This document shows positions 1 through 63,523 of a stretch of DNA of 64,000 bases, in pieces; position 1 is the first letter of the stretch, and every line of letters starts with the position of its first letter. Below the pieces are notes generated by a model. The model saw only the letters and a program-made list of their open reading frames with translations, did no database searches and was not told the origin of the DNA. The DNA comes from Candidatus Poribacteria bacterium (GTDB lineage: Bacteria; Poribacteria; WGA-4E; WGA-3G): NCBI GenBank assembly GCA_003635185.1, contig PYJA01000015.1:8249-72248 (forward strand), written 5' to 3'. The translations under genes were made by a program, and so were the position numbers.

Positions 1-633
1 CAAACCCGGTTGCCAAACCGCACCCGGATACGTCTTGACCGCTACCGGCCCCATCTCATCTATACAGATAACACGCGTCTGGGGCGGAGGCAAACTATAG
101 GCTGCTATGATGGCCCCCTTTTTTTCTACAAACGCCTCATCTTGTTTCTCTGCCTCACGAAACCAACTCTGTTGACGCTTCCGATGCAAACCCTCCTCTT
201 TCAACCACTCCCAGATCGTAGAATCCGAAAGATGAATACCTGTCCTTTCTTTAAACACAGTTTGCAACCGTTTCAGTGTCCACAACTCAAACGGATAATC
301 AAGACTGCGCGGTTTTCGCAATGCTAAATCTATCAATTGACCCCGCACTTCATCTGAATGGATGCGCGGTTTACCACTTTTCGGTTTATCCGAAAGTCCC
401 GCAATACCATCTTCATTGAAGCACTTGACCCAACACGCACCCGAGTTGCTTGATTTGAAACCTGCCTGTTGTGCTGCTTGTGTCGCTGTGAGCGTCTCGT
501 CATCAAGCATGCTCACAATCATTTTCGCACGCTGCACCATCCGATAGGGTTGTGTGCGTGACCCCGAAAGTGTCCGCAGTTGTTTTGCTTCTGCTTCATT
601 AACCTCACGTAGGTGATGTACTCGTTTACCCAT
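1..633 (-). CDS. IS630-type transposase, N-terminal part (cut by left edge)
   Basis: Reading the minus strand from ATG at 633 gives 211 codons without a stop, so the gene runs off the left edge. The protein starts [20 protein letters not shown]. It has a helix-turn-helix region ([20 protein letters not shown], about residues 52-71), then a second winged-helix-like part ([18 protein letters not shown]). Near the end is CIDEMGP, which fits the first catalytic Asp of the DDE domain of IS630/Tc1-mariner transposases. A ribosome binding site (GGAGAGGAG) lies 8 bases before the ATG. The C-terminal catalytic part and the left inverted repeat are outside the window, so intactness cannot be judged. 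Family assignment is from remembered architecture, not a search. Confidence 0.8.
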
Positions 634-6349: not shown

Positions 6350-6377
6350 GATTTAGACTCCTTCTTTTTTAATTCTG

Positions 6378-6534
6378 TAAAGTTTTTGGCATTGATTATT
6401 GAGTTTTACTTGTTCTCATCCATAGACACTAATTTGTCAAGATGCGGTAGGAGAGAACTCCTGTTCCCGACAGATCGAGATCTGGAGATCGCGCCTACCA
6501 TTCGGATTAGGTATAACAAGTGACAAAAACTTTA
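6378..6534. repeat. MITE-like element with 11-base terminal inverted repeats
   Basis: TAAAGTTTTTG at 6378-6388 is exactly complementary to 6524-6534. The core (6446-6498) is an imperfect palindrome containing GTAGGAG, CTCC-TTCCCGAC and GGAGATCG-GCCTAC blocks. The same blocks recur at 63424-63487 and partly at 8814-8837. No coding capacity is seen; it fills most of the gap after the propeller gene. Confidence 0.6.
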
Positions 6535-6643
6535 TACGCCATGAGTTCGACATGGGGCATGTTTAAATGTTGCAATGAAATAGCGGAGCATAAAGCCTTC
6601 GCCTTACAATTTAAATTTAATCAAATGTCTATGTATTTTTATC

Positions 6644-11984: not shown

Positions 11985-12144
11985 ATTTATAGTAGACTTT
12001 AGAATTAATTAGACATTATGTTCGGTTAGGAAACCGAACCTACCGGGGTGTTGTAGCACAAACTTTCAGTTTGTGTCCGCATCTGCACAAACTAAAAGTT
12101 TGTGCTACGGAAGTGTCCCACTAATTATAGGTTTTACTATAAAT
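11985..12144. repeat. MITE-like element with terminal ATTTATAGTA repeats
   Basis: The left end (11985-12012) and right end (12121-12144) are imperfect inverted repeats starting ATTTATAGTA. The core holds a short hairpin (TTCGGTT-AGG-AACCGAA, about 12021-12038) and two facing copies of a CACAAACT-AGTTTGTG hairpin. The rest of the gap to the next gene shows nothing else. Confidence 0.6.
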
Positions 12145-20436: not shown

Positions 20437-20533
20437 AGGTTGTGTGCTTTTTCACAGTAATCACCACATGGGAACTATTGATATACTCTCCCAGCTAAAG
20501 CAAGGAGATTCTTTATATTTTCGCTTATAACAA

Positions 20534-20677
20534 AGAGTTAAAATGAAGATTAAATAAATATTTCAGTAAAAAGCGAGGTTAGGAACCTCGCCAGCAGCAA
20601 GTGCACCTCCCTTGCTGGCGAGGTTTCCTAACCTCGCCAAATTAACCAATTTATTTCTTAATCTTCATAATAACTCT
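20534..20677. repeat. MITE-like element carrying a GGCGAGGTT hairpin core
   Basis: The ends 20534-20553 and 20658-20677 are 20-base inverted repeats with 2 mismatches (AGAGTTA-ATGAAGATTAA). The core (20573-20638) is a long imperfect hairpin of GCGAGGTTAGGAACCTCGCC with AGCAGCAAG/CTTGCT inside. The same 22-base hairpin core is found at 38919-38940 between different ends. It may also act as a terminator for the HD gene. Confidence 0.6.
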
Positions 20678-20732
20678 TGATACACAAAAAGTCTGCACGA
20701 TCAACTTACTCTTTTTGACAAGGAGAACACTT

Positions 20733-27125: not shown

Positions 27126-27190
27126 AGTCAACTTAGAATCATCAAAATACGTTACGAATAGTAGAGATAACTCAAGTTGCTACCTCGTAG

Positions 27191-27385
27191 CACAAACTGT
27201 TAGTTTGTGCCGATGAGTTTATACCGTAGGTCGGGTAGAGCGTAGCGAAACCCGACCTACAATATTGCTAAAAGAATTAACATTTGTGATAAAACACACC
27301 AGAAAAACCGAAAACTAAATAACCCTGAGTTTGTGCCACTTTTGTAGCATAAACTGCCAGTTTGTGCCACATTCCGCTGCATAGT
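27191..27385. repeat. Cluster of dispersed palindromic repeats between dxs and tlyA
   Basis: Three units are seen. A hairpin CACAAACT-GTT-AGTTTGTG lies at 27191-27209. An 11-base perfect stem GTAGGTCGGGT / ACCCGACCTAC (27226-27236, 27250-27260) recurs with inverted loop at 51136-51169. A 30-base block at 27298-27327 recurs with one mismatch at 51209-51238. The tail 27356-27377 matches 6744-6765 inverted. No gene is visible. Confidence 0.6.
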
Positions 27386-38886: not shown

Positions 38887-39002
38887 TATATAGTGAAACC
38901 CACAATTACCTTTACATTGGCGAGGTTAGGAAACCTCGCCAGCGTTATGGTGTGGGGATTGTTGTTCATTGAAATGTCCACATATTTTCGGATTTTACTA
39001 TA
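38887..39002. repeat. MITE-like element with ATAGTG...ACTATA ends and GGCGAGGTT core
   Basis: The ends (TATATAGTGAAACCCACAAT and CATATTTTCGGATTTTACTA) match those of the element at 63388-63523, but the core is the hairpin GGCGAGGTTAGGAAACCTCG-CC (38919-38940). Another fragment follows at 39003-39098, sharing AGTGTCC and TAATTATAGGTTTT with 12112-12140. The rest of 38717-38886 holds nothing recognised. Confidence 0.55.
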
Positions 39003-39101: not shown

Positions 39102-40304
39102 CTACAACGTCCGTTTACGAAAGAATTTTACAGCACTTGCTCCAATGACGAAAAGGAGGATTATTGCTTGCATCATCAACGTGACTTGTCTGGAAATGCC
39201 AACCTCCGCCTCCATAGCAAACGAACCTTTAGCAAGTGCCCCAAATAACAGTGCTGTGGCAACCGTCATCAGTGGGTGCAACTTCGCTAATAAGGCAACA
39301 GCAATTGCTGTGTACCCGTAATCTGGTGAAAAATTTTCAGTAAGCCGATGAGGGACGAGTGCCATGATTTCAATTGCACCGCCGAGACCGGCAAGTGCCC
39401 CGCTTATGAAAAAAACGCGAAGCGTGTTATGTGAGATCGAAATTCCTGCCGCTTCTGCTGCTGCGGCTCCCTCTCCTACGGCACGGAGTTGATACCCAAA
39501 CGTTGTACGAAACAGAACATAGGTCAAGACAATAGCTAATATCACGGCAAGACCGGTGCCGAGATGAATTCGATGTGATTCAAAAAGGCGTGGTAGGAAC
39601 ACCCATTCAGCTATCGGATCGCTCTGTGGTCCTGTTTTTGATGTCTCCTGTAGTGGTCCACCGTCTATCATTAAACTCACAAAGTGAATCGCAATGTAAT
39701 TCAACATAATTGTGCTAATCACTTCGTTCACGCCCCGTGTTACCTTAAGAATAGCGGGAATAATTCCCCATATACCACCCGCTAAGATAGCGAAACTGAG
39801 ACAGAGCGGTACTGCTATCCAGGAGGTATTTGGAAAGAGTATGGCTATCTTCGTGCCAAACCATGTTGCCGCTAAAACACCCATCAGAAACTGCCCTTCA
39901 GCCCCGATATTCCACATCCCACACCGAAACGCTATGGCAACGGAAAGTCCTGTCATAAGAAAAGGCGTGCTTCTCACTAATGTTTCACTTACCGCGCTTA
40001 CAGAACCGAATGTTATGCCAATAGCTGCAGCATAAGCCTCTATCGGATTATAGCCAAACAAAAATATGATAATGCCATTTGTTATGAAGGCACTGGTTAA
40101 AATCAAGACTGGTGCCAATATCCATAGAAAAAAAGACAGGATTTTTTTCAAGATTCTAACACATACGGGTTTTACCTTTTGATACAAGGCAGCTACTAAA
40201 ATCAAAATCGGTGTTAGAATCCAAACAAAAAAAGACAGGATTTTTTTTAATATGCTGATACATACGGATTTTGCCTTTTGATACAAGGCAGTAAATTTAT
40301 TCAT
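39102..40304 (-). CDS. BMP/nucleoside-type ABC transporter permease (first subunit)
   Basis: 400 residues. Polytopic permease of the YufP/NupP type: RCGMWNIGAEGQFLMGVLAA, VSTIMLNYIAIHFV and SGALAGLGGAIEIMAL are family features. The first 66 or so residues are unusual: a 33-residue unit (YQKAKSVCISILKKILSFF plus a membrane helix) is followed by a second slightly diverged copy, adding an extra hydrophobic helix. Its start overlaps the end of the ATPase gene by 8 bases, so the two are cotranscribed. Substrate probably nucleosides or a related solute, from family only. Confidence 0.85.
   Translation of the reverse strand: MNKFTALYQKAKSVCISILKKILSFFVWILTPILILVAALYQKVKPVCVRILKKILSFFLWILAPVLILTSAFITNGIIIFLFGYNPIEAYAAAIGITFGSVSAVSETLVRSTPFLMTGLSVAIAFRCGMWNIGAEGQFLMGVLAATWFGTKIAILFPNTSWIAVPLCLSFAILAGGIWGIIPAILKVTRGVNEVISTIMLNYIAIHFVSLMIDGGPLQETSKTGPQSDPIAEWVFLPRLFESHRIHLGTGLAVILAIVLTYVLFRTTFGYQLRAVGEGAAAAEAAGISISHNTLRVFFISGALAGLGGAIEIMALVPHRLTENFSPDYGYTAIAVALLAKLHPLMTVATALLFGALAKGSFAMEAEVGISRQVTLMMQAIILLFVIGASAVKFFRKRTL
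40099..40296 (-). repeat. In-frame 99-base tandem duplication within the permease gene
   Basis: Two adjacent 99-base units (about 40099-40197 and 40198-40296) encode related 33-residue segments, each with a basic stretch and a hydrophobic helix (ILKKILSFF-WIL). They have diverged at several bases, so the copy is not a recent assembly artefact. Confidence 0.8.
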
Positions 40305-51169: not shown

Positions 51170-51208
51170 AGGTAGTTTGGACAAAAATGTGAAAAATGTG
51201 AAAAATGG

Positions 51209-51238
51209 ACCAGAAAAATCGAAAACTAAATAACCCTG
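51209..51238. repeat. 30-base dispersed repeat, second copy
   Basis: Matches 27298-27327 with one mismatch (ACCAGAAAAA and AAATAACCCTG ends). In both places it follows the GTAGGTCGGGT hairpin in the same orientation, so the two probably belong to one composite element. Confidence 0.55.
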
Positions 51239-63387: not shown

Positions 63388-63523
63388 TATAGTAGATTTT
63401 ACAATTAACTTTACATTTTGATTGGTAGGGGGGAACTCCGATTCCCGACCACCAGTGGTTTAGTCGCGATTCGGAGATCGCTCCTACAAAGTATATGTAA
63501 ACATATTTTCATAATTTACTATA
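63388..63523. repeat. MITE-like element with TATAGTAGA...ACTATA ends and GTAGG-core
   Basis: Left TATAGTAGATTTTACAAT and right CATATTTTCATAATTTACTA ends match those of 38887-39002, but here the core (63424-63487) is GTAGGGGGGAACTCC ... GGAGATCGCTCCTAC, as in 6446-6498. It is a good example of a shared end with a swapped core. Confidence 0.6.

Follow-up and report, generated by a model that had tools for sequence, protein, structure and literature searches.

Nested miniature mobile elements in a Candidatus Poribacteria genome and probable insertion of one transposon family at the tips of DNA hairpins

Palindromic elements of the window

The analyzed window is a stretch of 64,000 nucleotides (G000:C15:8249-72248) from the 4.57-Mb draft genome (141 contigs, 82% completeness; "source genome" in the following) of a Candidatus Poribacteria bacterium of the sponge-symbiont type. 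Its small mobile elements are nested within each other in the manner of Russian dolls, which we attribute to a transposon family that inserts precisely at the apex of nearly every DNA hairpin, of whatever sequence. Two types of miniature inverted-repeat transposable elements (MITEs), here named E1 and E2, and two inner palindromes, here named core A and core B, are distinguished. E1 is represented by a 114-bp element at 38889-39002 (E1-A), which encloses core A (GGCGAGGTTAGGAAACCTCGCC) at 38919-38940, and by a 136-bp element at 63388-63523 (E1-B), whose core B at 63425-63487 has the form GTAG-hairpin..hairpin-CTAC of a dimer of repetitive extragenic palindromic (REP) sequences; both have IS630-type ends. 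The E2 element at 20543-20668 is 126 bp long, contains inverted copies of core A, and is bounded by the ends ATGAAGATTAA..TTAATCTTCAT, which are the same as those of an autonomous insertion sequence (IS). It separates the two halves of a hairpin: the left half (20533-20542) consists of the stem AAGAGTTA, a loop base and the apex base a, and the right half (20669-20678) of the apex base a, a loop base and the stem TAACTCTT, which gives a stem of 8 bp in exact register with the apex base duplicated. An intact REP-like hairpin, GCACAAACT-GTT-AGTTTGTGC, is located at 27190-27210, and its orthologue in the relative G004, whose aligned stretches are for the most part 92-97% identical to the source genome, is filled by an E2-ended element. 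An earlier note on the window had treated 20534-20677 as one element; this segment comprises E2 and most of the hairpin broken by it, and the break at the apex, which is the main finding reported here, had been overlooked. The start of E1-A was likewise moved from 38887 to 38889. Cores and ends were surveyed in 859 kb plus selected loci, and since these loci were picked by matches to E2, core A, or core B, genome-wide frequencies are estimates.

Insertion of E2 at the apex of host hairpins

The E2 ends (ATGAAGWTTAA..) yielded 188 arm matches in the source genome, and all matches listed from a public genome collection belonged to Candidatus Poribacteria. E2 elements are mostly 99-130 bp long and usually contain core A. 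Read from their flanks, they reside in unrelated palindromes, each of which is split at its exact centre, as in CACAAACTG-t[E2]t-TAGTTTGTG, GGTGCGGTTT-c[E2]c-TAACCGCACC, GGCGCGCTTT-g[E2]g-CAAGCGCGCC, CCCCCTTA-t[E2]t-CAAGGGGG, and CGTCCCT-a[E2]a-CGGGAC. The rule is that the host is a hairpin with a loop of 3 nt, that the insertion falls on the middle loop base, and that this base is duplicated. Most hosts are GTAG-tagged REP-like hairpins, so that insertion within REP palindromes does occur, and other hosts do not carry the tag.

For a quantitative assessment, 85 flank pairs from the source genome and 88 from relatives were pooled (173 in total), and removal of same-host duplicates resulted in 143 distinct pairs, among which false pairs were retained. 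An exact apex site, defined by a loop of exactly 3 nt on a perfect stem no shorter than 5 bp, was found in 85 of the 143, with the middle loop base duplicated in 77 of these sites; with shuffled partners the apex count had a mean of 11.9 and a maximum of 24 in 1000 runs. The 85 sites represent 21 distinct stems, and left and right arms paired in none of 85 cases when combined across host families. Pairs from the source genome (n = 85) showed pairing of 0.61-0.78 at the expected positions in the exact register only, and a duplicated apex base in 58 (shuffle mean 22.9), and those from relatives (n = 88) showed pairing of 0.75-0.92 and duplication in 72 (25.2 in shuffles). Under a stricter filter, which discards 27 of the 85 source-genome and 8 of the 88 relative pairs, including several real E2 copies such as that of the window, apex sites were present in 38/54 and 49/70 pairs, respectively. 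E1, which served as control in the same test with this filter, gave 0/49, and the background frequency of apex geometry is 0.14% (1183 of 856,328 positions).

Homologous empty sites support insertion at the apex. The hairpin at 27190-27210 of the window is intact (CACAAACTGTTAGTTTGTG), whereas the G004 orthologue reads CACAAACTGT[E2]TTAGTTTGTG, in which a 264-bp E2-ended element sits precisely at the central loop T, with duplication of this T. In a second pair, the source-genome locus L071 is filled (GGCGCGCTTTG[E2]GCAAGCGCGCC) and L314 of a relative is empty (GGCGCGCTTTGTAAGCGCGCC). Two further pairs consist of non-orthologous copies, namely the filled L192 (CCGTCCCTC[E2]CTGGGAC) against the empty L002 (CCGTCCCTCTGGGAC; also L072), and the less clean pair L226 and L321.

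The autonomous E2 element is an IS of 1240 bp with E2 ends (found in L250 and L335), in which 28-bp terminal inverted repeats surround a single open reading frame (ORF) of 384-395 amino acids; the L250 copy sits in a CACAAACT hairpin. The transposase matches the NCBIfam IS630 model NF033545 (score 178.6 bits, cut-off 100; 1.9e-52) and the DDE_3 domain PF13358 (score 74, cut-off 28.6; 1.4e-20), and relatives of it occur in 21 of the 57 genomes of the family. Decayed transposase fragments lie beside an E2 end in the source genome; no intact autonomous E2 was found in the loci taken mostly from this genome, and the intact copy came from a relative. Seven of the eight copies with both ends resolved (L335, L336, L337, L338, L341, L342, and L343) are located in hairpins with a perfect stem of 6 bp or more, the stems being read by eye, and four (L335, L336, L337, L342) have the exact duplication; in L343 the stem is one base closer than the rule predicts. 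L339 and L340 are full-length copies with one end resolved each. The TA target with 2-bp duplication does not apply to E2, which instead duplicates 1 bp, of any base, at the apex. As it is of IS630 descent but has no TA target, E2 is classed by transposase descent as an IS630 variant rather than a typical member. In the segment from its second D to its E, the residues that are catalytic in this family, the E2 transposase has about 25 more residues than an Alteromonas IS630 transposase (60 vs. 35, counted by hand), and this insert is a candidate for the new target specificity. The sequence search of the PDB with the E2 transposase gave no match, viral contigs contained no relative of it, and plasmids gave no match at 1e-20; at 1e-6, the 40 plasmid matches listed all had 26-28% identity, and the annotated ones were nearly all of the IS630 family. 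The copies examined from Alteromonas and Anoxybacillus showed no clear insertion site.

E1 and the distribution of the cores

A single MITE, E1, accounts for both 38889-39002 and 63388-63523, each of which represents one subfamily of it. Their ends agree at 23/30 positions on the left and 20/23 on the right while their cores differ, just as the earlier note had described, and in a search across the window the left end at 63388 had, besides itself, one place only with at least 25 of 30 positions matching. The note had also guessed a link to IS630, and indeed the E1 ends (TATAGTRAAAYC..) match the ends of IS630-family elements in the source genome: L120 has an IS630-type ORF between TATAGTAAAG.. 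repeats that match the E1 ends, E1 agrees with the left IS end at 22-25 of 32 positions, and L090 contains a truncated IS630 element (protein start recognized by eye) that has an E1-like end and is itself broken by an E1-type end. The further suggestion that the IS630-family transposase remnant at the left edge of the window (10-620, minus strand; G000:C15:8354-8866) mobilizes E1 or E2 found no support, its identity to the E2 transposase being 23% in a comparison that did not extend to the ends of E1. E1 comprises several multi-copy subfamilies with different cores, and a further window element (11988-12141) has a core of two GTAG hairpins (12057-12075 and 12085-12105). The site of 63388-63523 is empty in the relatives G004, G001, and G017; the element at 38889-39002 is missing at the same place in G001 and G017, with a different insert in G004, and an E1 element at L103:9107 is missing in one relative. 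E1 elements are bounded by TA, but at both empty sites compared (L103:9107 and window 63388) relatives read CA or TG in place of the TA expected of a target.

Core A was detected at 259 places in the source genome (at most 2 mismatches) and half of core B at 125 places, against 0 each for controls (the reversed sequence for core A), which is well above chance expectation, and core A is present in 23 of the 39 genomes searched, the source genome counted. That the cores also lie within other ends was borne out: core A is inverted at 20617-20638 in the E2 element, with a variant at 20573-20591, and a diverged relative of core B (63425-63487) is found at 6447-6498 in a third MITE-like element with E6-type ends (TGTAAAGTTTTTG), now delimited at about 6375-6536 (earlier 6378-6534). 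A strict bond of each core to one end type, proposed in the earlier note as the outcome that would speak against its claim, fails in the 859-kb sample, where each core has several end types. The 47 core-A clusters had E2/E2 (11), E1/E1 (8), mixed (5), single (15), or no ends (8), one of the five mixed clusters being E2/E2 by eye (hence 4-5/47); since the E2-end pattern used for this survey was loose (714 matches), lone E2 matches in it may be due to chance. The 24 core-B clusters had E1 ends (7), ends of the 6375-6536 type (1), partial ends (5), or no ends (11). The idea that cores move independently of their ends therefore holds insofar as core A occurs with E1, E2, and mixed ends and the cores are not bound to one end type; it does not hold throughout, since the E1-A and E1-B composites are uniform, present in multiple copies, and recur as units at many sites, so that cores also move jointly with their ends. 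Mixed-end elements of the type E2..core A..E1 were found in L094, L101 (twice), and L102, and some E2 copies have flanks that are halves of two different hosts; both probably arose by recombination between repeats.

On comparison with the table of REP sequences in PMC2817692, the REP or REP-dimer form (GTAG-hairpin or GTAG-hairpin..hairpin-CTAC) was recognized in core B, in the CACAAACT core, and in further cores; among copies of core A, some only show this form. The Rfam scan of the window gave no match at gathering scores. A REP-associated tyrosine transposase (RAYT) was sought, and in the source genome, at its 82% completeness, nothing beyond fragments from one or two Y1_Tnp genes was found, one of them in an apparent IS605-like remnant; RAYT was therefore rejected as driver of these palindromes, and because no proper REP-associated transposase was found, the cores are termed REP-like. 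A decayed IS200/IS605-like gene pair in L232 (source genome, C34) has a frame-broken Y1 transposase and TnpB-like remains, named by eye, with another palindromic element between the two genes.

Nesting was seen as E2 in REP-like hairpins, E1 in an E2 end (L077), and palindrome G in core A. Separate observations concern additional palindromic elements. An element GAAATCAACGGTATGAATGCC..GGCATTCCCCG occupies the core-A loop in L167, L173, L137, and others, with about 1 base replaced, and is also inserted in copies of itself; L048 and L194 have a further end type (ACGACTTGTGCCAGTTAA..) around core B, and this end type is itself inserted in E1 elements; and L165:287-579 (source genome, C60) combines CGTGAGTTTGATAA ends with a core of the CCCCCTTATCAAGGGG type, lies within an E2 arm, is flanked by an apparent 9-bp duplication (TTTAAATAA), and represents another MITE shell around another shared palindrome. 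A frequent, non-palindromic motif (GAAAAACCGAAAACTAAATAACCCTG; 27291-27327 and 51202-51238) often lies beside these elements, and one 14-mer from it was counted 29 times in the 859 kb. Two head-to-tail copies of 99 bp, 79% identical, are present at 40087-40284 inside the reading frame 39102-40304.

Interpretation and comparison with known systems

The most plausible explanation is that MITEs of at least two IS630-type families, together with a third end type, are combined with REP-like palindromes, and that E2 inserts at hairpin apexes; we assign this reading a probability of roughly 0.8. The register, the duplication, the homologous empty sites, and the autonomous element are its demonstrated parts. 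E1 would be an ordinary IS630-type MITE with several inner cores, and E2 the MITE of a different IS630-family element, the one of 1240 bp. The varied stems and the absence of arm pairing across hosts leave pairing itself as the feature that hosts share, and since pairing is visible to a protein only in an extruded palindrome, we infer that the transposase binds a hairpin or cruciform. E2 thus looks like an IS630 branch that recognizes hairpin structure. Its transposase would target the dyad axis of hairpin-forming palindromes, largely whatever the stem sequence, by reading the extruded form and not the sequence; it would insert on the central base of the 3-nt loop and join the transposon ends to the two strands, one on each side of the central base pair, which would duplicate that single base. 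Each insertion would extend a short palindrome into a nested palindrome of greater length. Three routes would then lead to swapped cores: each end type comprises several MITE subfamilies, elements insert at the apex of palindromes in other elements, and repeated cores probably recombine with each other, which would produce mixed-end elements. On balance we also favor, with less assurance, the wider proposal that a branch of IS630/Tc1-mariner has exchanged recognition of TA for that of DNA secondary structure and uses a 1-bp stagger to integrate into any extruded hairpin or cruciform at its two-fold axis.

Several observations weigh against apex targeting by structure. The expected hairpin is missing in 58 of the 143 pairs, and 48 of the 173 pairs before de-duplication have no 5-bp stem at any nearby register; at least one flank is half of a known host in 28 of these 48, as expected after rearrangement, and the other 20 have no known host half on either flank, some being false pairs in coding DNA. 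Exact duplication is missing in 8 of the 85 apex sites and in four of the eight resolved autonomous copies, among them L356, which has a weak stem only. The loop is closed by T-A in 71 of the 85 hosts, indicating some sequence preference in targeting, and as REP families are repeated, the sites are not fully independent by host. The AlphaFold prediction for the transposase was rejected for its low confidence (predicted local distance difference test score, pLDDT, 53) and left unused.

The T-A preference would also fit a transposase that recognizes a few REP families by their sequence and not by hairpin structure, in the manner of IS1397 or ISPpu9, and the commonest hosts indeed come from few GTAG REP-like families (stems AAACT in 25, AATCT in 14, and AACCG in 11 of the 85 sites). 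Such targeting is nevertheless improbable, because the 21 stems include AT-rich and GC-rich ones as well as single terminator-like hairpins in relatives (L284, L301, L290), and the failure of arms to pair across families means that no common sequence explains the pairing. The prevalence of REP-like or terminator-like hosts could alternatively reflect random insertion followed by selection, with only insertions in harmless hairpins or terminators surviving; selection would not pick out a single central base, however, as the exact register and duplication require, and E1 has no such bias, which makes this explanation very improbable. Long palindromes are prone to replication template switching and to the addition of outer arms, and every layer observed here is palindromic, so that nested palindromes might have grown from the outside with no targeted insertion at all. 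This explanation is the least credible: it is largely refuted by empty and filled homologous sites that differ with a 1-bp duplication, and it is contradicted by the transposase-coding element of 1240 bp, which has the same ends and occupies sites of the same kind, and by the result for E1, a palindromic MITE too. Both of the latter two explanations were rejected on this evidence. For the cores only, homologous recombination between REP copies, without nesting or subfamilies, might account for the swaps, and it is favored by the mixed-end elements and by E2 copies flanked by halves of different hosts. As sole cause it is unlikely, although less so than the preceding alternatives, given that mixed ends make up 4-5 of 47 core-A clusters, that E1-A and E1-B are uniform multi-copy composites, and that the apex insertions of E2 are direct.

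E2 agrees with the IS630/Tc1-mariner family (ISY100, Mos1, and here E1) in that its transposase is of the IS630 type with a DDE_3 domain, is encoded by a single ORF between terminal inverted repeats (28 bp in E2), and gives rise to MITEs. Known elements of this group use TA as target and duplicate these 2 bp (34/39 products in PMC2170065), whereas E2 inserts at the apex of a hairpin, where it duplicates a single bp, whichever base this is. The target of Mos1 is bent by about 147 degrees with target bases flipped out, and staggers of DDE/D recombinases are given as 2-9 bp in the same source (PMC5481204), a range outside which the 1-bp stagger of E2 would fall. A hairpin loop may already have the bending and base flipping that Mos1 has to impose on its TA target, and E2 would be a test case for the choice of bent, unpaired targets by DDE transposases. 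A transposase that finds apexes of many sequences would be a natural probe of hairpin or cruciform extrusion in vivo; if the proposal is true, the E2 transposase would be a genome-wide reader of those palindromes that extrude in living cells.

Insertion inside REP palindromes is shared with the REP-targeting elements IS1397, ISKpn1, IS621, ISPpu9/10, ISPsy8, and ISRm22, the last of which inserts at the axis of palindromy (PMC1525189). Those described in the accessible part of that source each use the REP type of one genome, produce duplications of 2, 3, or 6 bp, and belong to IS3, IS110, IS4, IS256, and IS5, IS630 not being among the families named there (PMC1525189). E2 differs from them by its many unrelated hosts and its 1-bp duplication. 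The literature search, which covered subscription journals thinly, found no report of an IS630 element that targets hairpin loops. The small dispersed repeats of Nostoc described by Elhai and colleagues in 2008 are similar in that very small palindromes are reportedly nested in themselves and in minitransposons; we know of no autonomous transposase and no apex rule for them. The closest printed match to shared ends with swapped cores is provided by REP dimers of the type of GTAG-15 in Anabaena variabilis, GTAG/CGTC dimers that lie inside longer palindromes, one of them with TATAGG..CCTATA ends (PMC3733652). For two species, no copy of the outer palindrome lacking the REP was found, and the portion of that source available to us names no mobilizer for it and no mechanism for the association (PMC3733652). 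The outer shells described here are, in contrast, linked to IS630 elements, and empty copies of the host hairpin occur as well. Apex insertion offers a specific mechanism by which palindromes become nested and REP dimers come to lie within other palindromes.
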